This document shows, piece after piece, positions 4,515-48,257 of a stretch of DNA of 49,021 bases. Origin of the DNA: a virus; the IMG/VR virus record IMGVR_UViG_3300036832_001455, positions 1-49,021 of that record. The stretch is one strand, 5' to 3'. Below the pieces are notes generated by a model. The model was given only the letters and a program-made list of their open reading frames with translations, was not told the origin of the DNA and did not search any database. A program made the translations under genes and the position numbers. Position 1 is the first letter of the stretch, and each line of letters starts with the position of its first letter.

Positions 4515-4543
4515 ATTATACGACAAAAGTTTTGCGAAAGCAA
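4515..4543 (-). promoter_or_regulatory. Sigma70-type promoter (leftward)
   Basis: On the minus strand: TTGCTT (4538-4543), 17-base spacer (starts TCGCAAAA), TATAAT (4515-4520). It is located between the 4562-4765 gene and the 47-aa gene it should drive. Confidence 0.87.
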
Positions 4544-4561
4544 GAGGGCGAGCGGGGCCGC

Positions 4562-4765
4562 CTACCGTAGCTTATGTTTAGACTCGACGATGAATCCCCT
4601 ATGTTGACCTTCAACCAAGAGGCTCCAGAAGTTATGCGTAAGTTTCGATACTTCGAGTACGACGCCGTTGCCGAGATGTTTCTGCGCGAATGACTTCGCT
4701 TCGTCGAACGTTACGTGTTTCGTTACTGTTCGGATGGAATTCTTTTCGATCGCTACGTTGTACAT
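4562..4765 (-). CDS. Hypothetical protein (67 aa)
   Basis: Unrecognised. The start at 4765 (MYNVAIEKNSIRTVTKHVTF) is preceded by GGAGACCAAA. Alternating beta/alpha character with an FDEAKSFAQKHL helix suggests a compact small domain. It lies just downstream of the repeat-rich 476-bp non-coding gap, so it is the first protein that could be made from the promoter at 5005-5034, after a long leader of about 230 bases. Confidence 0.74.
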   Translation of the reverse strand: MYNVAIEKNSIRTVTKHVTFDEAKSFAQKHLGNGVVLEVSKLTHNFWSLLVEGQHRGFIVESKHKLR

Positions 4766-4871
4766 TTTGGTCTCCTGTTTCGTTTTTTGTTCTAGCATTG
4801 TCCGATACTGATAATCCTAAATCGATACAATTGGTTCCTAGATGTTGACATGCCAAAGCTAGGATCTACGC

Positions 4872-4896
4872 TATCTCGTTGATTCTAAACGAGATA
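4872..4896. repeat. Hairpin repeat unit A (CTCGTT-N7-AACGAGATACA)
   Basis: Perfect 9-bp stem TATCTCGTT/AACGAGATA with a 7-base loop (4881-4887). The same CTCGTT-N7-AACGAGATACA layout recurs at 5146-5169, which makes a specific binding role more likely than chance. Confidence 0.7.
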
Positions 4897-5004
4897 CACA
4901 TTTGTCCTAAATGAATGTTAGGCATCGAAATAAGTAGTACACCGTCCGTTTCATTGTCGTACAAAGTTAGAGCAAGGTTAAAACAGCGCGAGCAAGGACG
5001 GATC

Positions 5005-5034
5005 ATTATACAAGATTCCTATATGTTCTATCAA
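5005..5034 (-). promoter_or_regulatory. Promoter candidate inside the non-coding region (leftward)
   Basis: On the minus strand: TTGATA (5029-5034), 18-base spacer, TATAAT (5005-5010). A transcript from here would run about 230 bases through the repeats before the 4562-4765 gene. It could therefore serve as a leader, an origin-priming RNA or a small RNA. Confidence 0.6.
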
Positions 5035-5145
5035 TGTCTAAATCTGTGGATTCTCTATATATTTTTGCTCGAACTGTATCGGATCTTTGAGTATCGGTGT
5101 ATTTAATATATCAATGCCCAGCAATAATTTAGGACAATTGTGTAA

Positions 5146-5169
5146 CTCGTTTGTTTTCAACGAGATACA
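5146..5169. repeat. Hairpin repeat unit B (CTCGTT-N7-AACGAGATACA)
   Basis: Second copy of the unit at 4875-4898, same orientation and same 7-base loop length but different loop sequence, with a 6-bp stem. Conservation of the arms and of the ATACA flank, but not of the loop, suggests recognition of the arms. Confidence 0.68.
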
Positions 5170-5227
5170 ACAAATCCTGTCTCAAACATTTGGGCATCAA
5201 GGACAAATGATTATTGGTTTAGGATTA

Positions 5228-5257
5228 TCGCTCGAGCAAGATCAGTCCTTCGAGCGA
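5228..5257 (-). terminator. Hairpin at the end of the 64-aa gene
   Basis: Perfect 8-bp inverted repeat TCGCTCGA (5228-5235) / TCGAGCGA (5250-5257) with a 14-base loop, overlapping the stop codon at 5242. There is no U tract after it on the minus strand, so it may be an RNA end-protecting hairpin rather than a full terminator. Confidence 0.42.
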
Positions 5258-5436
5258 TCGACGCCCTCCAGTTCATCGCGTGGATCGATGACGTCGAGGC
5301 CCTTCGCTAGCTCGACGAATTCGGATCGTAGGCGCATGTCCAATTCGCGCGTCCCCATGATCGCGATACCATCGATGAGGAACCTTAAACGCTTGAACAA
5401 CTCGTACGGCATCATAACGTATTCGCGTTCTTTCAT
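5242..5436 (-). CDS. Hypothetical protein (64 aa)
   Basis: Unrecognised. It opens MKEREYVMMPYELFKRLRFL, helical and amphipathic, and ends strongly charged (DPRDELEGVDRSKD). The start overlaps the upstream stop by 4 bases. It is the last gene of the 5242-7163 cluster before the non-coding gap. No motif gives a function. Confidence 0.72.
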   Translation of the reverse strand: MKEREYVMMPYELFKRLRFLIDGIAIMGTRELDMRLRSEFVELAKGLDVIDPRDELEGVDRSKD

Positions 5437-7718: not shown

Positions 7719-8003
7719 TTACTTCTTCGGTGCAGCTACCACCGACGATACCGACGAGAGCGAACCACTCGCCTTCGCCGCCTTGAACGCCTTGAACTCC
7801 TCCCGCATCGCCTGCTCACGGGTGTACTTCACCTTGTTGTACTTCGTACGGTAAACCAAGGCGTAGATGCCGCGCTCGACGATGAGGTCGATGATCTCCT
7901 TCTCCGAACGATCGCCGCGAGTTGAGAGGATCTTAGCGATGGCCGACACCTGCTCTTCGGTCAAGGTGATCTGGACGGTCTTGCTGTTGGAATTGGTAGT
8001 CAT
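7719..8003 (-). CDS. Paralogous small regulator-like protein A (94 aa)
   Basis: Unrecognised family, present twice here. Residues around 10-60 match the 8561-8782 protein closely: an ITLTEEQ/ITLSDEQ strand-helix, then EIIxLxVERGIYALxYRTKY and NKVKYTR. The short beta strand followed by helices is suggestive of ribbon-helix-helix-like DNA-binding proteins. The C-terminus carries an extra A/S/V-rich tail absent from the shorter paralogue. GGAGACCATC precedes the ATG. It lies just after the strong promoter at 8091-8119, implying abundant early expression. The DNA-binding assignment is inference. Confidence 0.78.
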   Translation of the reverse strand: MTTNSNSKTVQITLTEEQVSAIAKILSTRGDRSEKEIIDLIVERGIYALVYRTKYNKVKYTREQAMREEFKAFKAAKASGSLSSVSSVVAAPKK

Positions 8004-8090
8004 GATGGTCTCCTCTGGTTAACCTGCGTGGTGGCGTTACAACACCTACTCGATGAAGCGTCGCCGATAGAACCCGTCGCTTCATAACTT

Positions 8091-36283: not shown

Positions 36284-36561
36284 AGGTCTCTCACCTTTCC
36301 GGCTTTACGCCATTCAAGCGTATCGGGGCCGCGGAGCTTCGCCTCGATCACCGCAGGATCTTTAGTTACCGTCTCCTTATGTTCCCTTAGTGCGAGAAAC
36401 GATATCTCGTCCGCACAACGGAGTTCGAGGTAGAGTTCGTCGATAACGTAACACTCCTTCGAGTGTGTATCTTCGAAGAAGGACTTACTATCGACGATGC
36501 GGTGGATAAGCCACGAACGACCTTCACGTTGGATAATCGTACCGACTTTATACTCGATCAT
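36280..36561 (-). CDS. Hypothetical protein (93 aa)
   Basis: The ATG at 36561 (MIEYKVGTIIQREGRSWLIH) shares ATGA with the DpdA stop. Beta rich first half, acidic middle (SKECYVIDELYLELRCADEI) and helical end (IEAKLRGPDTLEWRKAGKVR). It sits between the DpdA-like enzyme and GroES-like gene, coupled to both. Unrecognised. Confidence 0.68.
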   Translation of the reverse strand: MIEYKVGTIIQREGRSWLIHRIVDSKSFFEDTHSKECYVIDELYLELRCADEISFLALREHKETVTKDPAVIEAKLRGPDTLEWRKAGKVRDL

Positions 36562-37301
36562 ACGTTCACCCCACATACTGCAAGATTGTCTCTAATCGCT
36601 TGAAGGTTGCGTCTATTCGTTTGAGGTGGGGAATCAAAATCAACATCAGTACCTTCAACTTCCCAAGCGGGATCGTGGAGACGGAAACCATTCCATCCCC
36701 TCCAAACTGGAGCTGAGGAATCCACCGACGCACAGTTCGCGCTGGCAAGCAAAGGCAGTTCCGCTGCATTCCCCGCAAGCATTCCGAGCGCGTGAACGTT
36801 AACGGACGGGTACCTCGTATGTATATAGGCACACCACTGTGTGCGGGTACCAATACCAGGCGCAAGTTTTGTTCCAAGAATGCGCGGTAACGCAACCCAC
36901 GAAGGCTGTATTTCCTCGATGCCCTTGCAGAGCACGTATTCGAAATCCTTGATCGTTTCACCCTGCGGTACATACATCCACTCCGTATTACTTATGATTG
37001 ATCGCCACTTTGTATGGAAACGTACACTGATATCGAGTGAATCGCGTCCGGGTCCGCCGAAAAGATCTGGCAAGACAACAACTTGAGGATGGTAGAGTCC
37101 AATTCGCTCAAGAAGTTGGTTACTGTCGAGACGTCCTTCATATGCTCCGTTATCGAGTATGATAAGATCGCCATCTTCACGCCTCCTTCGGTAAAACTGT
37201 TGATAAAGTGCGTTCGTTACGTGCGACAAAACTAAGTGCGCTTTACTTTTGGTCGCCCATTGTTGCAACCCCGTCGCCGGACTGATTATGCAGAATTGCA
37301 T
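36558..37301 (-). CDS. dpdA: DpdA-like 7-deazaguanine DNA transglycosylase (247 aa)
   Basis: TGT-family enzyme that swaps guanine in DNA for a 7-deazaguanine base. The barrel motifs are visible: LDNGAYEG (49-56), VLPDLFGG (76-83), VALPRILG (135-142), VHALGMLAGNAAEL (169-182) and SVDSSAP (192-198), where D194 is a nucleophile candidate. The size is close to the short DpdA forms found in phages. The same operon holds folE, queD, queE and queC, which supply preQ0, making the assignment strong. Its 5' end overlaps the helix-turn-helix gene by 59 bases. Confidence 0.85.
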   Translation of the reverse strand: MQFCIISPATGLQQWATKSKAHLVLSHVTNALYQQFYRRRREDGDLIILDNGAYEGRLDSNQLLERIGLYHPQVVVLPDLFGGPGRDSLDISVRFHTKWRSIISNTEWMYVPQGETIKDFEYVLCKGIEEIQPSWVALPRILGTKLAPGIGTRTQWCAYIHTRYPSVNVHALGMLAGNAAELPLLASANCASVDSSAPVWRGWNGFRLHDPAWEVEGTDVDFDSPPQTNRRNLQAIRDNLAVCGVNV

Positions 37302-37689: not shown

Positions 37690-39202
37690 TGTATCCCTCC
37701 GCTAAGGTGTAAGAATGTTCGATAGCACTGCGCGTTTCGCGGATCACACCCGCCTCTTTAAGGCTACTGAGAATGTTTCGCGTTCCCGCAGCTGCCATTT
37801 TGTACTGCATCTTACGTATAAGATCACTATGGTCGATTTTACCTCCAGCACCGCGGATCTTGCGGATGATAATTTCTTGGTCTTCACCCCATGCCGTTTT
37901 GAACATCTTACCGGCGAGAGCGGGTAAAAATTTTTCCGTCCACGTCAGAAGTTTTAGCGCTCGTTCCCAACACGCGAGACAAACGATCATGTCCTTACAG
38001 GACGAGAGATGAAGGCACATCGCGATACGCAGGAGATGTTGTGGTTTCCTCTGGTAATACGTTTCGAGGATCTCGTGCTCGACGAGTCGTGTCTTTTTGT
38101 CTTCCTCGTACCAATCGATGTGCGTCGTTCGTGTTGCATCGGATAAGATCATCTCCCCTTGATTCTCGTGCATACACGCGAGCTCGATCTTTAGTTTCTC
38201 CCGCAGGCGTCCGTCGGAAGGTTCGGGAAGTGCTTTCATACGCGCCGAAGCCTCCTGCAGGATCATAACGTTACGCGCGATGAAACCTCCGCCGAAGATC
38301 GACTCGGGTGTGTTCTTTACGAACCAATCCATCGTCGAGCACATGATACACGTTATGGCTACGTCGGTCAAGACCGCCTTGCCGCGCATAATCGTTCCGC
38401 TCTTCCATAAGTCGGGTGAGTCCATGAAGCGCGTGAGAAGCGGGATGATCGACTCCATATATCGTTGTCTGCTGATCAAGACGGTCATTTCGGGAGCGTA
38501 AACCAAGCCGGTAGCGTTACCTCCTTTCATCGCGTCGATCAGCGCTTCAGGCGTTAGCTTTTCGGCGTAGACCGGTGTGAGTTGCATTTCGTTAATAATT
38601 CCGATGATAATATCTGCCGCAGAAGTCTTTTTGATTCCAGATGGTCCAAGTATAAGAATGCCAAAAGGAAGGAACAACCTAAAGTTGCCCATGTCGAAAA
38701 AGACTCGGCGATTGACAGTCGCAGCAATACCAGCAATAGCGCAAAAAACATGGTAAGCGAGAGGAGCCTCACTGTTCCGAGTATAATTTGCATAGTCATG
38801 TAGGAATCCCTCTCTTGGTATAAGCTTCCATAGTTCTTCCTCTTGTCGTCGAGCGATCGCCGTTAGATCTAGCGAAGGTGTTATGAGACGCTCGACGATT
38901 CTCGCGACTTCTCCTATAGGCGCTTCGATCGGTATTGGATCCGCTGCGGTAAGGATCGCTTGTCGAAGTTCGTCTTCGTTGATATTGAACGCGATGCATA
39001 CGAGTGTTTTTATTTCCTCGCGATACTCCGCAGGCATTTCAAGTGGCATCTTAAGCCACGTTACGACGGCACCAAAGATCCGACTTTTAACGTCGAGGCC
39101 TCGTTTGTCGCGCAACAGTAGCTTGAAGGTTTCAAACTGTTGTTGCGGTGAACTTTGCAAGGAATTTTTCCTTTCGTGCACCTTGCCCCCATGACGGGCC
39201 AA
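37682..39202 (-). CDS. DUF3987-type primase-helicase-like ATPase (506 aa)
   Basis: Walker A GPSGIKKT lies at residues 186-193, with Walker B-like LVYAPEM and a sensor-like segment (DVAITCIMCSTMDWFVKNTP) downstream, then a helical C-terminal region. This matches DUF3987-type helicases found in phages. Expected role: unwinding at the phage fork with the Pol I-type polymerase encoded immediately upstream. The annotated start at 39202 lies 71 bases inside the polymerase gene; a TTG at 39160, with AAAGGA upstream, would reduce the overlap to about 29 bases and is plausible. Confidence 0.8.
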   Translation of the reverse strand: MARHGGKVHERKNSLQSSPQQQFETFKLLLRDKRGLDVKSRIFGAVVTWLKMPLEMPAEYREEIKTLVCIAFNINEDELRQAILTAADPIPIEAPIGEVARIVERLITPSLDLTAIARRQEEELWKLIPREGFLHDYANYTRNSEAPLAYHVFCAIAGIAATVNRRVFFDMGNFRLFLPFGILILGPSGIKKTSAADIIIGIINEMQLTPVYAEKLTPEALIDAMKGGNATGLVYAPEMTVLISRQRYMESIIPLLTRFMDSPDLWKSGTIMRGKAVLTDVAITCIMCSTMDWFVKNTPESIFGGGFIARNVMILQEASARMKALPEPSDGRLREKLKIELACMHENQGEMILSDATRTTHIDWYEEDKKTRLVEHEILETYYQRKPQHLLRIAMCLHLSSCKDMIVCLACWERALKLLTWTEKFLPALAGKMFKTAWGEDQEIIIRKIRGAGGKIDHSDLIRKMQYKMAAAGTRNILSSLKEAGVIRETRSAIEHSYTLAEGYND

Positions 39203-41624
39203 TCTTCACCTCTGCGGGGAATACGAAGCCATCCATCTCTGGGATGGGAGCTTCAAAGGCCGACTTGACTAGGTCGTACGCATCTAGCGCCTTGCTTCGC
39301 GATAGCGTACCGTCACCAAAGTCGCAGTTGACATTCATTATTGCCGAGTCATGGACGGTGAAATAGATTCTCGACCGCTCGCCAAAGGTTGCAGTAAGAC
39401 GTTGGGGAAGAGCGAGCAGTACATTTCGTACGAGTACATCGACTGCTGTTGTTTGTCCAGGAAAAGCGCATATCTCGTTGTGTTGTCCTTCGGGATTCGG
39501 GAAACGGCGTAGTCTTCCAAAGACCGTTTGAAGGTAGCCATACTTAGACGCGGAGAGCTTGAGTTCGCTGTGTAGTCGGCGAAATTCCCAATAGTCTCGG
39601 TGAAAAGCATCGTAAATGGCTCGGGCTTTAACGCGATCAATCGGTAGCCCTTGGTCAGTAGGATTGGGAACTCCTCGTCCATAAGTAAACCCCAACGGCC
39701 ACGACTTCGCAATAAGTAGTTTCCATGGGGGAGTGTGATCTTCATCACGGAACTCTTTATACCTGGGCTTACCTCGAAGGAAGAAAGGCTCGTTCCATAT
39801 TTCTTCGTAGAAGGCTGCATATAGATAGTCTCCGCTTTCTTTGATCTCTAGTGCATGTTTGCACTTCGAGTACCACGCGTACGCCCAGAATTCGATTTGC
39901 GAGAAGTCTGCGCTGATAACGACATCGCAAGGACGCTCAGCTGGAATACAATCCCGAGGAGACGATCCCGCGAGAATTTCTGGAATCTGTTGCATGTTTC
40001 GATTAACCGTTTGGATTCTTCCGCCGACCTGACCGTGCCCTTTGCCTCGGCAATAGACGCGTCCGTCTTTACTTGCGAGATTAACGAAGTCGCCTGCTTT
40101 TCGAAGCTCTCGCATAGTACGTATAAGTCGAGCAGTTTGATTTCCGTTGAGCTCAAGTTTTTCGAGGAAGTTGTCATCAACGCTGGGTGTGTACGTTCCA
40201 TTGGATCGTTTTACCTTCGGCACTTTAATGCCGCGTGTTTGGAACATTTCGACGAGCTGCTTGGGAGACGACCACGAGAACATGGGAATGTTCTTCGCCC
40301 ACCACTTTTCGTACGCATCGAGCTTCATTCGCAGTTCGATCTCGATCATGTCGCTTTTTGCTTGGTCGTACGGGGCGCCGATGACGTTCCACGATCCAAT
40401 CTCTGGGATGATCGGCATTGCATGACGCCAGAAGAGGTCCTCGATCCCTTGATGGAACCAGCGAAAGCGTTTGGCACCGTACCGGTCAAGCTCTTGCATA
40501 GCTGCGACCATGTTTTGACCAGCTTCGAGAACTCCGTAGGTATCGGCGGCGTTGTATTCGTCTGGTGAAATGTCCTGTAGGTTTTTGTGGAAGGGTAAGT
40601 CCGTATAGAACGACATGCACGTTGCGAGATCCTTCCGCGCCATCTCAGGCCTTAAAAGGTGGAACGCCATCATCGCGTCAGCTGGTCGTATAGCGTCGAG
40701 AGAAAAGTGCTGCCGCAGATGGTGAAAGTCAAAGCCTGCATTGTAGGCCCAGAGGGTGACCTGTCGATCACGATCATCGGATCCTCGATGTGAAACGTCA
40801 CACAGTCTTCGTAGGAGAGGAAACTGATCAGGATATACCTGGAGTGCGTGGTTATGTTCAGCTGAGAGCCCAATAACCCCGACAGGAAGATATTTTCCTT
40901 CGACGAGTTCGTCTTCATCCTCCACGAGCGATTCCGGAGTCTCAATATCAAGTCCACCCTCTCCTCGGCTAAGAAGGAGATCGACGTACTCGTTGATCGT
41001 CGCAGTAGTGGGAGATGAATCAAAACTCGGGGTCCGCCAAACAGCACGTCCGTCAGCAAATCGACCAGCTTTGGCGATGTCGCTCTCCATGACAGGAGCG
41101 ATCGTAAAGCCTGTACGCATGACGAAAGCCGGATGGAGGGTTGGTATGACCACGTAGGTACGCTCGCCACGATTGATTCGTGTAGGACAACCACGTAACC
41201 AGTAGTTGGCGTCTTTTCGGCTGACTCGTCTATCGTGGAGCATGTGGAACTTTTTCGGGCTCGCGATTTCATTGAACGCCTCGGCGCCTAACGTTAAGAT
41301 GGTAGATACCGACTTAAGATTTCGCAACTCTCTGTCAAGGAGTGGTTTACACTTAGTAACTGCTCCCGGAGGTACCGGTTGTCCTGGGGCGACAAAGCAC
41401 TTAACCGTATTTGTAACAAAGTTCTGCGTACGGCTAATACCTCCATCTCCAAGAGCGCGATCAAGTATTCTTCCGGATGGTCCGGCAAAAGGTCTTCCTT
41501 CAGCGATTTCTGTTGGTCCAGGAGATTGACCCAGAATGGCGAGTTTTGCGTTAGGGGTTCCAGTTCCCCATATGGGTCCGGGGGCGTTGTATAAGGGGCA
41601 TCCATTGCATGTCTCCGGTTTCAT
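39132..41624 (-). CDS. DNA polymerase I with N-terminal uracil-DNA-glycosylase domain (830 aa)
   Basis: Replicative phage polymerase. Residues 1-190 are a family-4-like UDG: four candidate Fe-S cysteines (CNGC at 6-9, VKC and KCKPL near 84 and 97), motif 1 as GQSPGP instead of GEAPG, and HPAFVMR as motif 2. A 3'-5' exonuclease-like part follows (GGLDIETPE; AYNAGFDFHHLRQ; YNAADTYG). The polymerase domain has motif A DFSQIE (D573), motif B AKSWPLGFTYGRG (K about 640) and motif C VHDSAI (H758 D759). UDG-PolA fusions are known from SPO1-like phages. It follows folE after one base. Confidence 0.93.
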   Translation of the reverse strand: MKPETCNGCPLYNAPGPIWGTGTPNAKLAILGQSPGPTEIAEGRPFAGPSGRILDRALGDGGISRTQNFVTNTVKCFVAPGQPVPPGAVTKCKPLLDRELRNLKSVSTILTLGAEAFNEIASPKKFHMLHDRRVSRKDANYWLRGCPTRINRGERTYVVIPTLHPAFVMRTGFTIAPVMESDIAKAGRFADGRAVWRTPSFDSSPTTATINEYVDLLLSRGEGGLDIETPESLVEDEDELVEGKYLPVGVIGLSAEHNHALQVYPDQFPLLRRLCDVSHRGSDDRDRQVTLWAYNAGFDFHHLRQHFSLDAIRPADAMMAFHLLRPEMARKDLATCMSFYTDLPFHKNLQDISPDEYNAADTYGVLEAGQNMVAAMQELDRYGAKRFRWFHQGIEDLFWRHAMPIIPEIGSWNVIGAPYDQAKSDMIEIELRMKLDAYEKWWAKNIPMFSWSSPKQLVEMFQTRGIKVPKVKRSNGTYTPSVDDNFLEKLELNGNQTARLIRTMRELRKAGDFVNLASKDGRVYCRGKGHGQVGGRIQTVNRNMQQIPEILAGSSPRDCIPAERPCDVVISADFSQIEFWAYAWYSKCKHALEIKESGDYLYAAFYEEIWNEPFFLRGKPRYKEFRDEDHTPPWKLLIAKSWPLGFTYGRGVPNPTDQGLPIDRVKARAIYDAFHRDYWEFRRLHSELKLSASKYGYLQTVFGRLRRFPNPEGQHNEICAFPGQTTAVDVLVRNVLLALPQRLTATFGERSRIYFTVHDSAIMNVNCDFGDGTLSRSKALDAYDLVKSAFEAPIPEMDGFVFPAEVKIGPSWGQGARKEKFLAKFTATTV

Positions 41625-41625
41625 G

Positions 41626-42174
41626 TTAGCGTTTCCAGTTCAAGACGATGTCGAAAAATCTCGCTTGGATGTGAGGAACGTTAAGAAATTCTCCAACCAA
41701 GTTGTACGTTGTGATATCGCCCAGAGTTCGAATACCGCGAATCTGCATGCAATCGTGATTTGCAGTAACCAGACAGGCGGCTCCTTTTGCAGTGGGGATG
41801 ATCGACTTAAGGCGATCGACGATTTCCCGAGTGAAAGCCTCTTGTAATATTGGCCCGGCATTGCAATCATGCACAACTCTCGCAAGCTTAGAGAGTCCAA
41901 GGACCTCTCCGTTAGGAATGTAGGCCACATGGACTTCCATATGAACTGGTAAGAGATGATGCGGGCAGAGAGAGAACATTTTATGTCCTCGGAGTAGGAT
42001 AAAGTCGCTATAACTTTCCTCAAAGGTTGCGTATTCAGTTTCCTTTGGGGAAAATATTTCGTCATAAGCGCGAGCAACCCGTTCGGGAGTCTCTGCATAG
42101 TTACGATCCTTCGTGTCGCAATTGAGTCCGGCGAGAATGAGTCTAACGCCTGCTTCGATTTTCGAGTGGTTCAA
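41626..42174 (-). CDS. folE: GTP cyclohydrolase I (FolE)
   Basis: 182 aa with TTG start at 42174: an AAGGGAGG ribosome-binding site lies 8 bases upstream, and the TTGA overlaps the preceding stop. It converts GTP to dihydroneopterin triphosphate, first step to preQ0. Zinc and catalytic residues are present: SLCPHHLLPVHM with Cys and His ligands, and HDCMQIRG near the C-terminus for the second Cys. The length fits FolE. Phage FolE genes occur in deazaguanine DNA-modification clusters, and this operon also holds queD, queE, queC and a dpdA-like gene. Confidence 0.92.
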   Translation of the reverse strand: MNHSKIEAGVRLILAGLNCDTKDRNYAETPERVARAYDEIFSPKETEYATFEESYSDFILLRGHKMFSLCPHHLLPVHMEVHVAYIPNGEVLGLSKLARVVHDCNAGPILQEAFTREIVDRLKSIIPTAKGAACLVTANHDCMQIRGIRTLGDITTYNLVGEFLNVPHIQARFFDIVLNWKR

Positions 42175-42602
42175 CTGTTTAACCTCCCTTGCCGCGTTTT
42201 CTCCTCTTCGAGGTAGCTCGCGTCGATTTGCTTCATGATACCACGCACGACGTGACAATCGCATTCGGCCTCGAAGTGCATGAGAGCGAACGCAGCCCAC
42301 GCGATTGCCGCGAGATCGTTGTCGACGGTATTACCGTTGAGCTTGTAATGATTGAGGTGCATTTCGAGATGGTTGAGAATGCTCGAAATAGGCATTCCCT
42401 TCGTCCAGTTGTCGTCGCCATACTTCGTGCCGAGATCGTAACGTGCTGCGAGTTGCGCGAGCGCCGTCGGACAAACGAGGTCGTAACGAAAACCCGCGTC
42501 TTCAGTTGACCTTTGTGCTCCGCTTTCGAAGACCTTCGTTGATTCTTCGCTCGTAGGTATCGAACCAATGTTCGATTTGTCGAGATACGTCGGCTTCTGC
42601 AT
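42171..42602 (-). CDS. dATP/dGTP diphosphohydrolase-like protein (143 aa)
   Basis: A DUF5664 / dGTP_diPhyd_N-like domain spans most of the protein: TKVFESGAQRSTEDAGFRYD, then PTALAQLAARYDLGTKYGDD with NWTKGMPISSILNHLEMHLN and LAAIAWAAFALMHFEAECDC, giving the acidic helical bundle expected of MazG-like pyrophosphatases. The likely job is adjusting dNTP pools or removing unmodified dGTP. The start at 42602 (MQKPTYLDKSN) is uncertain, and overlap with the 122-aa gene reaches 101 bases. Confidence 0.72.
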   Translation of the reverse strand: MQKPTYLDKSNIGSIPTSEESTKVFESGAQRSTEDAGFRYDLVCPTALAQLAARYDLGTKYGDDNWTKGMPISSILNHLEMHLNHYKLNGNTVDNDLAAIAWAAFALMHFEAECDCHVVRGIMKQIDASYLEEEKTRQGRLNS

Positions 42603-42870
42603 CTTGGTCACTAGGCTTACGAACGAGTCCTGCGAAGAACTCCTGCCAGGCTTTTTGCGCCGCGGCTTTGGCGTGTTCGATGTTGACGTTTCCTGTTTTT
42701 TCATTGTAGTGGCGTGCTGTTATTTCGCCGTCTTGACGGTTTACCGCGCCGACGACATAACAGAGGTTTCCTTTCTCGTAGTGAGTTCCGAAAAATCCAA
42801 GATACTTACCGCTGTACGAAACGACGCGTTCGAGGATGGTGTACGGGGGGCGTTTGAAGTCGAGAAGCAT
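42502..42870 (-). CDS. Hypothetical protein (122 aa)
   Basis: Unrecognised. Beta rich N-terminal half (PPYTILERVVSYSGKYLGFF then YVVGAVNRQDGEITARHYNE), followed by helical, acidic C-terminus (QIEHWFDTYERRINEGLRKR). It overlaps the next gene's N-terminus by about 100 bases, and one of the two starts may be wrong. It follows the 29-aa membrane protein after three bases. No functional motif seen. Confidence 0.62.
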   Translation of the reverse strand: MLLDFKRPPYTILERVVSYSGKYLGFFGTHYEKGNLCYVVGAVNRQDGEITARHYNEKTGNVNIEHAKAAAQKAWQEFFAGLVRKPSDQDAEADVSRQIEHWFDTYERRINEGLRKRSTKVN

Positions 42871-44034: not shown

Positions 44035-44619
44035 TTAGAAGGGAATGTCATCGTCGCGGATATACGCGTCTATATCAATCGGCGGCGACGCTACTTTTTT
44101 GCCTTCTTGGGCGGGAACTTCTTTTCCTTCTTCATTTCCTTCTTTATCTCCTTCTTCTTGCCTGCCATGGTTGCCTCCTTCCTTCAAGAAGTAGCGCGTA
44201 TGTTCCCAGCGCTCGAGTACTGCGGAGGAGGTGCAAGTTTCGTTGATTTCTAGCTTGCACCAAGGTAACGTTGTTGGAATCTGTGAAGCGATCCAGACGA
44301 GAAGATTTTCGGATGTTGGTGTGAAACCGGGAATCATTCCTTCGACGGTTGAAAGAAGCCAGACTTTGTAGTCGGGTTCCATGCCGTTGAAATGGATTAC
44401 TTCGCCTTCGCCGAGATGCTGATGATCGAGTTTGTCGACGATAGGCTGGACGGCTTGTTTGATGTCGTAGAAGTCCTTGACCATCTTTGTGATGGGATCT
44501 AGCTTCCCTTGACAGGTTACCGTAAGGACCCAAGAGTGACCATGAAGGCGCCGACATTTGCCAGGATGGTTGGCAATTTGATGCGACGCCTCGAAGGTAA
44601 ACGTTTTACTTACGTACAC
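44035..44619 (-). CDS. queD: 6-carboxytetrahydropterin synthase (QueD) with acidic SSB-like tail
   Basis: GTG start at 44619 with AAGGAG 8 bases upstream. QueD converts dihydroneopterin triphosphate to 6-carboxytetrahydropterin. Zinc His13, His26 and His28 (FEASHQIA, RRLHGHSW), catalytic Cys22, LDHQHL and TSENLL are all present. Beyond about residue 146 there is an unusual tail: charged and glycine/glutamate rich, ending AYIRDDDIPF. The last six residues are identical to the C-terminal tip of E. coli SSB. QueD enzymes normally lack this. A lysine-rich mini-gene overlaps the same segment in another frame, so the tail may be a coding coincidence or a genuine fusion. Confidence 0.87.
   Translation of the reverse strand: MYVSKTFTFEASHQIANHPGKCRRLHGHSWVLTVTCQGKLDPITKMVKDFYDIKQAVQPIVDKLDHQHLGEGEVIHFNGMEPDYKVWLLSTVEGMIPGFTPTSENLLVWIASQIPTTLPWCKLEINETCTSSAVLERWEHTRYFLKEGGNHGRQEEGDKEGNEEGKEVPAQEGKKVASPPIDIDAYIRDDDIPF
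44091..44168 (-). CDS. Lysine-rich mini-protein overlapping the queD tail (25 aa)
   Basis: Starts at 44168 after GGAAGGAGGCAACC, one of the best ribosome-binding sites in the genome. It reads MAGKKKEIKKEMKKEKKFPP then KKAKK. Just before its TAG is the heptamer A-AAA-AAG (44094-44100), a classical -1 slippery sequence; slippage would join the lysine-rich part to the queD frame and add VASPPIDIDAYIRDDDIPF. Both the mini-gene and its extension are inference from motif and phase. Confidence 0.45.
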   Translation of the reverse strand: MAGKKKEIKKEMKKEKKFPPKKAKK

Positions 44620-44702: not shown

Positions 44703-45098
44703 TTATCGAACTCCCGGTGCTTGCGTTAGTGATTTGAAGCTGTACGGTGGAACGTTCATTGACGGAGCGCCCTTGTACATACCGTGGACGACGGTAAGGT
44801 ACATCTCCGCGTCGAGTACTTGTTCGGGATCATGACCCTCAGGGCCAGGGGTGTAACCTGCGGCTTTGTAGATGCCCTTAAGGGTAAAAAGCGCGTTGGG
44901 TTCGAGTGATGCCCAAACCCTCACGTTGCGCCCATACGAGGGCCCTTCGTTCTGGATTTTGAAGTCAACGACGACCATCGGCTTGCCTTGTGCCGACGTA
45001 TCTTCGGTAACGCTACTGACGCGTACGTGGTACGTGCCTTCCGGGACTAGTTCACCTGGTGCCTGAACCTCATCCATATTATCTGTGTGTATTGTCAT
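44703..45098 (-). CDS. DUF669-like phage replication/recombination protein (131 aa)
   Basis: Pattern VPEGTYHVRVSSVTEDTSAQ, then KPMVVVDFKIQNEGPSYGRN and LEPNALFTLKGIYKAAGYTP matches DUF669-type proteins, OB-fold-like factors found beside Sak4/RecB genes in phages and thought to bind single-stranded DNA. It lacks the acidic tip typical of host SSB, which in this genome appears instead on the queD tail. The start has a weak ribosome-binding site (GAGCAAATCAA). Confidence 0.74.
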   Translation of the reverse strand: MTIHTDNMDEVQAPGELVPEGTYHVRVSSVTEDTSAQGKPMVVVDFKIQNEGPSYGRNVRVWASLEPNALFTLKGIYKAAGYTPGPEGHDPEQVLDAEMYLTVVHGMYKGAPSMNVPPYSFKSLTQAPGVR

Positions 45099-45570: not shown

Positions 45571-46326
45571 TTAGTACAACGTCGCGACGGTTCCGATGAA
45601 GCGCTCACATTCCTTTGAGTCTTCAACGTCGTATGAATCTACCTTAAAACTCTTATCGCCGACTATTTCGGGGATCGACTTGGTTCCTCGGTCGAAGTCG
45701 AAGAGATAGAGGGGTCGTGGGAAGGTGAGGAGCGCTCGGGTTTTACCAATCCCAAAGGGCCCGTAAAAGATCCAAATGTAAGCCGGATTCCATAGACCTG
45801 TTGGTTTTGCCAGTGCTGCGATTTTACCATAGTCGAAGGGAAGATATCCTGGAGGCGCGCCGATAGTTCGTGCGTTAAATCGATCCTTAGTTTCCCAGTA
45901 ATCTCCTCCTGCACCCAATACCTCACGTGCAGCGACAGCCACCGGCTGTCTATTAACGATTTTGACATGGAGAACGTTATCTGCTGCACGGCACATTTCG
46001 TCTGGTGTTCGATTTCCAGGCATATCGGGCCAACCTTTAACAGCAACAGGCTCAGCGGGCTGTTGACCCTTGCTAGCCATTGCACCTCCACGAGCGTAGA
46101 CCTTTTGGATATCTTCATGAGCGGTGAAGACGACTTCAGTTCCTTGGTCACGTAGGTTCTTAAGCCTCCGAATAAGCATGTTCATACGTTCCGTGGCTGG
46201 CGGGTAGTCGTTCATCCCGCGAATCTTTTCGGTATCGAGCGTCGTTTTGTTCATCGCCTTCGAGAAGTACAAGCGCGCCATCTCACTGCACGAGTCGAAG
46301 GCGACCGTCGCGTACTTAGCGGCCAT
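45571..46326 (-). CDS. Sak4-like (AAA_24) ATPase with circularly permuted motif order (251 aa)
   Basis: Phage recombination ATPase related to RecA. The usual Sak4 order is Walker A first, Walker B and the TAH motif later. Here Walker B (YATVAFDS) is at residues 5-12, then TAHEDIQK, MPGNRTPDEM and FNARTIGAPPGY, while Walker A (GPFGIGKT) comes only at 189-196, near the C-terminus, followed by FPRPLYLFDFDRGTKSIPEI. The frame is continuous through both halves. The start is ATG 46326 (MAAKYATVAF). It overlaps the small membrane gene by 11 bases. It could be a real circular permutation or a rearranged but intact gene. Confidence 0.85.
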   Translation of the reverse strand: MAAKYATVAFDSCSEMARLYFSKAMNKTTLDTEKIRGMNDYPPATERMNMLIRRLKNLRDQGTEVVFTAHEDIQKVYARGGAMASKGQQPAEPVAVKGWPDMPGNRTPDEMCRAADNVLHVKIVNRQPVAVAAREVLGAGGDYWETKDRFNARTIGAPPGYLPFDYGKIAALAKPTGLWNPAYIWIFYGPFGIGKTRALLTFPRPLYLFDFDRGTKSIPEIVGDKSFKVDSYDVEDSKECERFIGTVATLY

Positions 46327-46465
46327 GGATACCGCCGATAAGGTACGTAAGGACCCAGAAGAAAAGACCAAGCGCGATGAGGTTCACGCGCGGCCAAGCG
46401 ACGTTAATCGCGGCGATGAAGAAGCATATCGCGGCGAGAATATACAGGATAAAAGAGGCGTTCAT
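46316..46465 (-). CDS. Small two-helix membrane protein (49 aa)
   Basis: MNASFILYILAAICFFIAAI, then NVAWPRVNLIALGLFFWVLT and a YLIGGIHGR end. The ATG shares ATGA with the QueC stop after GGAGGAATCC. Two hydrophobic segments with a short basic turn give a hairpin membrane topology. Similar tiny proteins occur next to recombination genes in other phages, of unknown function. Confidence 0.68.
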   Translation of the reverse strand: MNASFILYILAAICFFIAAINVAWPRVNLIALGLFFWVLTYLIGGIHGR

Positions 46466-47133
46466 GAGAGGATTCCTCCATATTCGGTTGGATCGTTGAT
46501 TCCGGCGAGCGCGAAAGCCTCACGGCGTTCGACACAGGTACCACAACGCCCGCAGTGGAGCGACAAGCCTTTGTAGCACGACCACGTATGGTCCCAAGGC
46601 ACGCCTAGTTCGTTCCCGAGTCGGGCAATGTCCGCCTTCGTTATGTTGGTGTAAGGCGCGTGGATATAAATGTCGCTGTCGTTGCCGGTCGAAAACGTTA
46701 CGCTGAGCATCTCGATAAACCCTTGCCGGCAGTCGGGGTAGATCGGGTGATCTCCAGCATGTGCTGCTATCGCGACGAGTTTCGCGCCGATCGAGACCGC
46801 GAAGCCGTAGGCGATCGAGAGCATGATCGCGTTCCGGTTAGGCACGATCGTCGCTTTCATCGTCGCATCCGTATAATGACCTTCGGGTACGTCAATCGTA
46901 ACGTCAGTAAGCGACGATCTTCCGAGTAGATCGCGCAGTTGTAAGAGCGAGATAGTCTTGTGAAAAATCCCAAGATCCCTCGCAACAGCCCGCGCATAGT
47001 CGAGCTCCTTTCGATGTCGCTGACCGTAATCGAACGAAAGCGTGTGGACTTCGTATGTTCGTGCGAGATCATAGACAAGCGTACACGAGTCCATGCCTCC
47101 CGAATAGATCGCAACTGCTATAGGTTTATTCAT
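46462..47133 (-). CDS. queC: 7-cyano-7-deazaguanine (preQ0) synthase (QueC)
   Basis: 222 aa; start at 47133 (MNKPIAVAIYSGGMDSCTLV), which shares ATGA with the nuclease stop; longer in-frame extensions would lie inside that gene. Adenylates and amidates CDG to preQ0. SGGMDS is the ATP-pyrophosphatase PP loop, and SCYKGLSLHCGRCGTC near the end gives the four zinc cysteines. Together with FolE, QueD and QueE it completes the route to preQ0. No QueF or amidotransferase is seen, so preQ0 is the expected product. Confidence 0.94.
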   Translation of the reverse strand: MNKPIAVAIYSGGMDSCTLVYDLARTYEVHTLSFDYGQRHRKELDYARAVARDLGIFHKTISLLQLRDLLGRSSLTDVTIDVPEGHYTDATMKATIVPNRNAIMLSIAYGFAVSIGAKLVAIAAHAGDHPIYPDCRQGFIEMLSVTFSTGNDSDIYIHAPYTNITKADIARLGNELGVPWDHTWSCYKGLSLHCGRCGTCVERREAFALAGINDPTEYGGILS

Positions 47134-48257
47134 GCGGTCTCCAGTTGTAGTACCTTTTTGTACTCCGCTTCGACGTAATCTTCCTCGCGTTCGTGGAACT
47201 CGCCTTCGTTCGCAACGAACATCCGCTGACAGTAGTCCATATAGTAGCACTGCCGGTTGTAATTCGTACACGACTTCGTATTCATATAGACGGCGGCGAT
47301 ATTTCCTCCATCAGCAGCTGCAAATGCGCGCTCGTAGTCGTTTGCTTGTTCAACGAGCTCGAGAGCAAACCTTTCAAGGTCTTCATTTGAGCGGAAGTAA
47401 GGTTCACGTCCGAAACCAACTGCAAGCTGATCTTTAGCGTTTTTGTACGGCTTCTGGATAACGTTAAGGATGAAACCTTCAGGTTTGACTCCAAGAGTTT
47501 TCCATATGCCGTACATGTAACCCGTAGCTTGGGCATCGAGTAGGTACCTCTTGTAGAAAATTTCCGGCGCTTGCGCGTTCGTTTTGTGCTCGAACAACCA
47601 GACCTTCGTCATCCATTCGACGACGGCGTCCGTTTTGCCCTTGAAATAGTGGGGCATGAAGCATTTTGGTACGGGCGTCGAGCATGTAGGGCAACGCCCC
47701 TCGCTTGGGTACATATCCGAGTGCTCGACGCCCATCGACGAAACATGGTTCAAGACGAGCCCTTGTTCGGTTTGGCATTGTTTCCATGATTCACAAGCAG
47801 GTCGTTTTGCGATTTGCGTAATTGCGGGTGGTTCTTCGCGCGGCGGGGCCGGGGGCGGATAAAGTAACTTATGCGCGAAGTGACAGTGGTGCCAGGAGTT
47901 TGGCATCGGAAGACAGAAGGCGACTTCCGGCCAAAGGACTTGAACGTCTTGACCTTCGTAGTGTTCAGCGAACTTAGCTACCGCTCGCTTCGTCCACTCA
48001 ATGCCATGTTCGATGATTGGTTTTTCTTCGGCTAGGATGACCTGCGTTGCGTACCTATCGCGCATGTCTTTTTCTGCAGCTGCAACGGCTTTTTGTACGT
48101 CCTTCGTCGCGAAAAGGACAGCGGCTCCGACGTGAAATCCGCCGCCGGTAAGGAGTGCGTCGGCCTCACGCCATGACGAGAGACGTAAAGCGTCCCAGTT
48201 GTACGCCTTACGACGACATTCCTGGAACTGACTGATTCGTGACCAGTTGATGATCAT
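47130..48257 (-). CDS. RecB/Cas4-like PD-(D/E)XK nuclease with Fe-S cysteines (375 aa)
   Basis: N-terminal Cys14 (FQECRRKAYNW) and C-terminal SCTNYNRQCYYMDYCQ provide the four cysteines of an Fe-S cluster that staples the nuclease. The active site is GKTDAVVEWM with D210 followed by LFEHKT with E223 and K225. A Cys-rich insert (residues 155-199) may form a second metal site. It should act as a 5'-3' or 3'-5' exonuclease with the Sak4-like annealase. Shares ATGA with the tiny membrane gene and with queC. Confidence 0.85.
   Translation of the reverse strand: MIINWSRISQFQECRRKAYNWDALRLSSWREADALLTGGGFHVGAAVLFATKDVQKAVAAAEKDMRDRYATQVILAEEKPIIEHGIEWTKRAVAKFAEHYEGQDVQVLWPEVAFCLPMPNSWHHCHFAHKLLYPPPAPPREEPPAITQIAKRPACESWKQCQTEQGLVLNHVSSMGVEHSDMYPSEGRCPTCSTPVPKCFMPHYFKGKTDAVVEWMTKVWLFEHKTNAQAPEIFYKRYLLDAQATGYMYGIWKTLGVKPEGFILNVIQKPYKNAKDQLAVGFGREPYFRSNEDLERFALELVEQANDYERAFAAADGGNIAAVYMNTKSCTNYNRQCYYMDYCQRMFVANEGEFHEREEDYVEAEYKKVLQLETA

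Follow-up and report, generated by a model that had tools for sequence, protein, structure and literature searches.

The sak4-like gene and its relatives

The window, i.e. the whole 49,021-nt stretch of viral DNA analysed here (IMG/VR record IMGVR_UViG_3300036832_001455), carries on its minus strand a 251-aa ORF that starts with ATG at position 46326, has its final sense codon at 45574 and ends with a stop codon at 45573–45571. Frame 1 of the plus strand, read from 45571, has several stops. The initial annotation, which gave no strand, had described an open frame here that overlaps the upstream gene and encodes a Sak4-like ATPase with rearranged motifs. The motifs lie in the translated minus-strand ORF where they had been placed (YATVAFDS at residues 5–12, TAH at 68–70, DMPGNRTPDEM at 101–111, and GPFGIGKT near residue 189 with 55 residues after it), and the frame overlaps by 11 nt a 49-codon ORF (46465–46316, minus strand). 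The latter is located between queC and the permuted sak4 and probably codes for a membrane protein; a similar ORF is found in the related contig L003. The features of the locus are as follows.

45571–46326, minus strand: circularly permuted Sak4-like ATPase gene (251 aa, with stop), identified by profile matches, rotation tests and 16 other contigs
46291–46314, minus strand: Walker B strand YATVAFDS, residues 5–12 (strand 7–11 in the structural model; D11 in 11 of 11 aligned permuted proteins)
46111–46137, minus strand: AH-motif strand EVVFTAHED, residues 64–72 (matches the canonical A/H column; strand 64–69 in the model)
46012–46104, minus strand: Gly/Arg/Lys-rich stretch of low model confidence (pLDDT <50), residues 75–105, candidate DNA-binding loop region
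45880–45888, minus strand: conserved K-x-R (KDR), residues 147–149, near the ancestral C-terminus (alignment)
45778–45849, minus strand: junction, residues 160–183, where the ancestral C-terminal helix (166–176, confidently predicted) is joined to the ancestral N-terminus (alignment of rotated and canonical proteins)
45739–45762, minus strand: Walker A GPFGIGKT, residues 189–196, followed by 55 residues (sequence, alignment)
45691–45693, minus strand: Asp212, in a column that is mostly Glu in canonical Sak4 (alignment)
44703–45098, minus strand: DUF669 SSB, candidate partner (Pfam PF05037, PHROG 378), at this position in every related contig that extends so far
46462–47136, minus strand: queC, between the exonuclease and sak4 genes in the permuted clade (Pfam, PHROG)
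47130–48257, minus strand: exonuclease (phrog_1218), candidate partner, upstream of the permuted gene in all related contigs reaching that far

The product was matched by two family profiles, Pfam AAA_24 (PF13479; E 4e-15, above the curated cutoff) and PHROG 124 (Sak4-like ssDNA annealing protein; E 6e-26), each in two stretches. The ORF is thus not a chance one, and the proposed kinship with the Sak4 and AAA_24 families stands. When the viral record was searched with PHROG 124, profile positions 106–237 fell on the N-terminal half of the protein and positions 43–96 on its C-terminal part, that is, in swapped order. All 14 aligned permuted members were matched by this profile.

Scans of IMG/VR yielded 13 further contigs with the permuted gene, and a later scan that used the neighbouring polymerase added three more. 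The permuted order is therefore present in 17 contigs including the window, which come from different metagenome datasets and whose proteins are from 87% down to about 47% identical to that of the window. The ORF is intact and full-length in 13 of these contigs, is cut by the contig end in two (L011 and L013) and has an interrupted frame in the remaining two (L017 and L062). In L017, the start region of the gene (7936–8010) is out of frame with the remainder, with the break near position 8000; an in-frame TGA of L062 corresponds to a Trp codon in L050. Walker B precedes Walker A wherever a contig of the clade spans the two motifs, and the new N-terminus lies 3–5 residues ahead of the Walker B strand in the 12 intact genes whose start region was read (four residues in the window protein). 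Wherever the contigs reach, the gene order is also retained: exonuclease, queC, permuted sak4, DUF669, queD, queE, folE and UDG-PolA.

A peptide-pattern search of 84,980 prokaryote genomes did not find the permuted gene, nor was it found in plasmids, and searches of cultured phages gave no match in permuted order. Two records, MW202675 and MW202455, seemed to cross the junction; in their annotated layout the match begins in one gene and continues into the next, which is an ordinary AAA-domain gene, and they were set aside.

Rotation tests

In canonical members of the Sak4/AAA_24 family, Walker A is N-terminal and Walker B follows 60–80 residues later. Canonical Sak4 proteins from phages and viral contigs, 14 in all, were used to build an HMM, against which proteins were scored after rotation in steps of three residues; for each canonical protein, the model was built with that protein left out. 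On rotation, the best single-domain score of the window protein rose from 36.7 to 77.5 bits; cuts placed between about residue 75 and residue 183 did equally well. All 11 full-length permuted proteins tested peaked at an internal cut, with gains of 27–54 bits that roughly doubled the score, whereas each of the 14 canonical proteins peaked at its natural ends or at cuts within its variable tails. Profile–profile comparison with hhalign improved from E 3.7e-12 over 70 columns for the unrotated proteins to E 5.1e-24 over 136 columns for the rotated ones, and the AAA_24 match to the window protein changed from two stretches (56 bits) to a single one (62 bits). Among cultured phages, the rotated query matched 97 records at a query coverage of at least 80%, and the unrotated query none. 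The only solved structure matched by the permuted profile was ORF016 in 8RC5, weakly (E 0.009) and in two pieces of swapped order; 8RC5 is the Sak4 of phage 52A according to the Stl2 paper (PMC11846896).

Both halves of Sak4 are thus present once in the permuted protein, with their N- and C-terminal order exchanged. Permutation-aware comparison, which merged two partial matches to canonical Sak4 and AAA_24 into one continuous match, supported the circular permutation suggested in the initial annotation, and we regard the permutation itself as nearly certain. The similarity of the permuted proteins to canonical Sak4 is low (about 25–35%). Because these proteins are homologous to Sak4 yet the canonical colinear order, with Walker A first, is absent from their clade, we refer to them as circularly permuted derivatives; judged by its sequence, the window protein is a derivative of Sak4 and not an ordinary member of the family.

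Conserved residues

We defined as conserved those columns in which at least 11 of the 14 canonical proteins share the same residue, and aligned 11 permuted proteins to the resulting 17 columns. Fourteen of these are unchanged in all or nearly all permuted proteins, including the Walker A G-x-x-G-x-G-K-T, D11 of Walker B, A69 (10 of 11 permuted proteins) and the K147-x-R149 pair, both residues of which are retained in all 11 permuted proteins and in 12 of the 14 canonical ones. The three changed columns are a Gly position at which most permuted proteins have Pro, a column that lies past the fused C-terminus, and the one occupied by Asp212. In the last of these, all 11 permuted proteins have Asp, whereas 11 of the 14 canonical proteins have Glu and two have Asp; we assume that this Glu may correspond to the catalytic Glu96 of RecA.

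One subgroup, consisting of three other relatives, has an altered Walker A, GMEKT in L050 (gene at 4519–5367) and L062 (4561–5349) and GIKKT in L054 (4861–5643). Since L050 and L062 have the GMEKT change in common, sequencing error is unlikely for both. The loss of a key Walker A residue in these three relatives and the broken frames in two (L062 and L017) suggest that some members of the clade may not depend on ATP.

Predicted structure

AlphaFold2 gave a pLDDT of only 33 for the single sequence; with a 14-sequence alignment and no templates it predicted the chain confidently in its permuted order (pLDDT 79.4, pTM 0.80). In this model, the N-terminal part comprises the Walker B strand (7–11), helices 13–24 and 41–60 and the AH strand (64–69); the middle part consists of the low-confidence stretch 75–105, strands within 117–131 and helix 166–176, the ancestral C-terminal helix that is now in the linker; and the C-terminal part contains the Walker A strand (184–188), helix 195–201, strands 206–210 and 227–231, and helix 238–248. 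Residues 75–105 are candidates for the counterparts of the RecA loops L1 and L2.

An order-dependent Foldseek search of the PDB with this model returned chance matches only, with none at E 0.001 and neither RadA nor Sak4 among them, as is to be expected of a permuted chain. A Foldseek search of BFVD gave one significant match, A0A516LUR7 (E 5e-5, TM 0.43), a 248-aa viral protein that, from its modelled structure, could be another permuted Sak4.

Predicted function

The Sak4 of phage HK620 is an ssDNA-binding protein whose annealing of complementary strands depends on ATP and is stimulated by the DUF669 SSB encoded next to it (PMC5928155). The window protein resembles the phage ssDNA-annealing ATPases of the Sak4/AAA_24 family, such as those of HK620 and 52A, in its homology over both halves, in Walker A, Walker B, AH and KxR, and in the presence of exonuclease and DUF669 SSB genes nearby. 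It differs from them in the Walker B to Walker A order, the fused ancestral termini, the new termini before Walker B, and in having Asp for Glu after strand 2.

Given the exonuclease and DUF669 SSB encoded in the same operon, we propose a resect–coat–anneal role like that of HK620 Sak4: the gene very probably encodes a circularly permuted Sak4 derivative whose most likely activity is ATP-dependent single-strand annealing together with these two partners. In this derivative the ancestral termini are joined by a short helical linker, and the new ones lie in the loop immediately ahead of the Walker B strand; the chain runs from Walker B through the AH strand, the candidate DNA-binding region, the ancestral C-terminal helix and the linker to Walker A, strand 2 and a helix. 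The same ATPase core is expected, with an ATP site assembled from the last third of the chain (Walker A) and its first residues (Walker B). The neighbouring exonuclease would resect DNA ends, the DUF669 SSB would coat the resected strand, and the permuted protein would anneal complementary strands during replication and recombination. ATP binding, annealing and partnership with the SSB are all predicted properties, and the term 'recombinase' used in the initial annotation rests on homology and gene context.

A protein with the permuted fold might instead serve another purpose, for example as an ATPase regulator or an SSB-handling factor in a replication and 7-deazaguanine operon, an option to which we assign a small but real likelihood. 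The gene is embedded among queC, queD, queE and folE, one subgroup shows Walker A decay, and the DUF669 SSBs here are devoid of an acidic C-terminal tail, whereas HK620 Sak4 needs such a tail on its SSB. Against this, exonuclease and DUF669 SSB genes adjoin the permuted gene as they do in canonical Sak4 modules, in outgroup viruses that share the operon a canonical Sak4 gene adjoins the exonuclease gene, and a change in Walker A is also tolerated by a canonical Sak4, that of phage PA73, which is reported to keep recombination activity when its Walker A is mutated (PMC5499656). Annealing remains the favoured function.

Origin of the permuted order

In maximum-likelihood trees of rotated permuted and canonical Sak4 proteins, the permuted proteins form a single clade (support 100/100) on a long branch, and the other 25 Sak4 proteins are all canonical. 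The tree does not settle which canonical subgroup is closest to this clade. To look just outside it we used the polymerase encoded at 39132–41624 (minus strand), a DNA polymerase A with a fused N-terminal uracil-DNA glycosylase domain (both domains above Pfam cutoffs), which serves as a marker of the lineage. Viruses that encode a distant version of this UDG-PolA have a canonical Sak4 wherever a Sak4 was found. In two of them, L080 and L095, the order is exonuclease, canonical sak4, queD, queE, folE, queC and UDG-PolA, and the Sak4 of a third contig, L086, is nearly identical to that of L080. From the gene order in L080 and L095, an exonuclease gene adjoining sak4 looks ancestral; queC between the two was not seen in the outgroup viruses examined. 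The canonical Sak4 genes of these two contigs and of phages Lebethron, PMBT14 and Serbin are like the permuted one in having the exonuclease beside Sak4 and either UDG-PolA with que genes or PolA near; they differ in that Walker A comes first and sak4 directly follows the exonuclease gene, with no queC between.

By this phylogenetic evidence, the permutation arose on one lineage of uncultivated bacterial viruses. A simple route would be that sak4 was duplicated in tandem and the two outer halves were then lost, possibly in one event with the placement of queC between the exonuclease and sak4 genes. An ancestral permuted order, or more than one gain of it, is very unlikely: the long branch and the unsettled sister group leave some room for this, but the permuted set lies on one side of a fully supported branch, with canonical proteins in the rest of the tree and in those UDG-PolA viruses outside the clade in which a Sak4 was found.

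Integrity of the gene

Fourteen of the records were searched with PHROG 124, several of them 47–51 kb long, and each has a single Sak4-like gene, so that the permuted ORF is not a fragment accompanying a canonical gene. Between the window and its closest relative, with a protein 87% identical, dN is ∼ 0.09 and dS ∼ 1 (dN/dS ∼ 0.1), and invariant residues are found in both halves of the permuted proteins. On the basis of this divergence, the permuted order is kept by selection, with strong purifying selection over the whole ORF. That the ORF is a mere fusion of fragments, while a separate canonical Sak4 elsewhere does the work, is accordingly hardly credible; the interrupted frames in two relatives would fit such a fusion, but the lack of a second Sak4-like gene in the searched records, the selection on the entire ORF and its invariant residues in both halves all speak against it.

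A scrambled contig hiding a canonical gene is excluded for practical purposes, for although the permuted gene is known from metagenomic contigs only, with no isolate and no match in a cellular genome, the same order, cut site and neighbours recur in independent contigs from different datasets at identities down to about 47%, and the 16 relatives bear out the earlier view that mis-assembly need not be invoked.

Comparison with other P-loop proteins

The position of the cut is analogous to that in cpRAS, a P-loop domain whose termini are likewise opened between strand 2 and the Walker B/G3 strand. Its order is G3-G4-G5-G1-G2, and an earlier survey had judged such a cut likely to impair folding (PMC2430557). 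Unlike the permuted Sak4, cpRAS is a Ras-like GTPase domain within large proteins, and is neither RecA-like nor viral nor involved in DNA recombination. The YRG/cpGTPases (YqeH, YlqF and YjeQ) are also naturally permuted P-loop NTPases maintained by selection; they have the order G4-G5-G1-G2-G3 and are GTPases of ribosome assembly. Dual-wield NTPases were considered as a further parallel and rejected, as they have a different topology and no permutation has been reported in them. RecA, Rad51 and RadA belong to the superfamily of the same ATPase core but have the canonical order and carry out strand exchange; no direct sequence match of the permuted protein to them was detectable here. Rad51 is the closest structural homologue of the 52A Sak4 (PMC11846896).

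The natural permutations of P-loop NTPases that we found described are all in GTPases, and no report of a permuted Sak4 or RecA-family recombinase was found in the open-access literature, represented mostly by titles and abstracts. We suggest only tentatively, and with more doubt than confidence, that the permuted Sak4 is the first case of natural circular permutation among the RecA/Rad51 recombinases and one that changes protein assembly. If so, the segments that flank the core at the free ends of canonical Sak4 would be locked in an internal linker and the free ends would lie beside the ATP site, which may result in a different oligomer or different regulation. A RecA-like protein swapped throughout a lineage indicates that new ends next to the ATP site are compatible with this core, and the permuted Sak4 offers a natural experiment on which segments are responsible for filament formation and contact with the SSB. 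It also points to a blind spot of annotation: profile methods report an ordinary Sak4, and a structure search that depends on chain order retrieves no solved relative.

Other genes of the window

The QueD-like protein of the window (44035–44619, minus strand) ends in an SSB-type acidic tail, DDDIPF. The same tail is found in L001 and L003, a variant (DDDLPF) in L013 and a weaker one (DNCPF) in L002. The genes folE, queE, queD and queC, a 7-deazaguanine (preQ0) set, are interleaved with replication and recombination genes between 41626 and 47136 (minus strand), and the protein encoded at 42171–42704 (minus strand) has a dATP/dGTP diphosphohydrolase N-terminal domain (Pfam PF18909). Finally, an ORF at 36558–37301 (minus strand), which has no Pfam match, resembles by eye a transglycosylase-like (DpdA-type) protein, a resemblance that would fit a DNA modification pathway.
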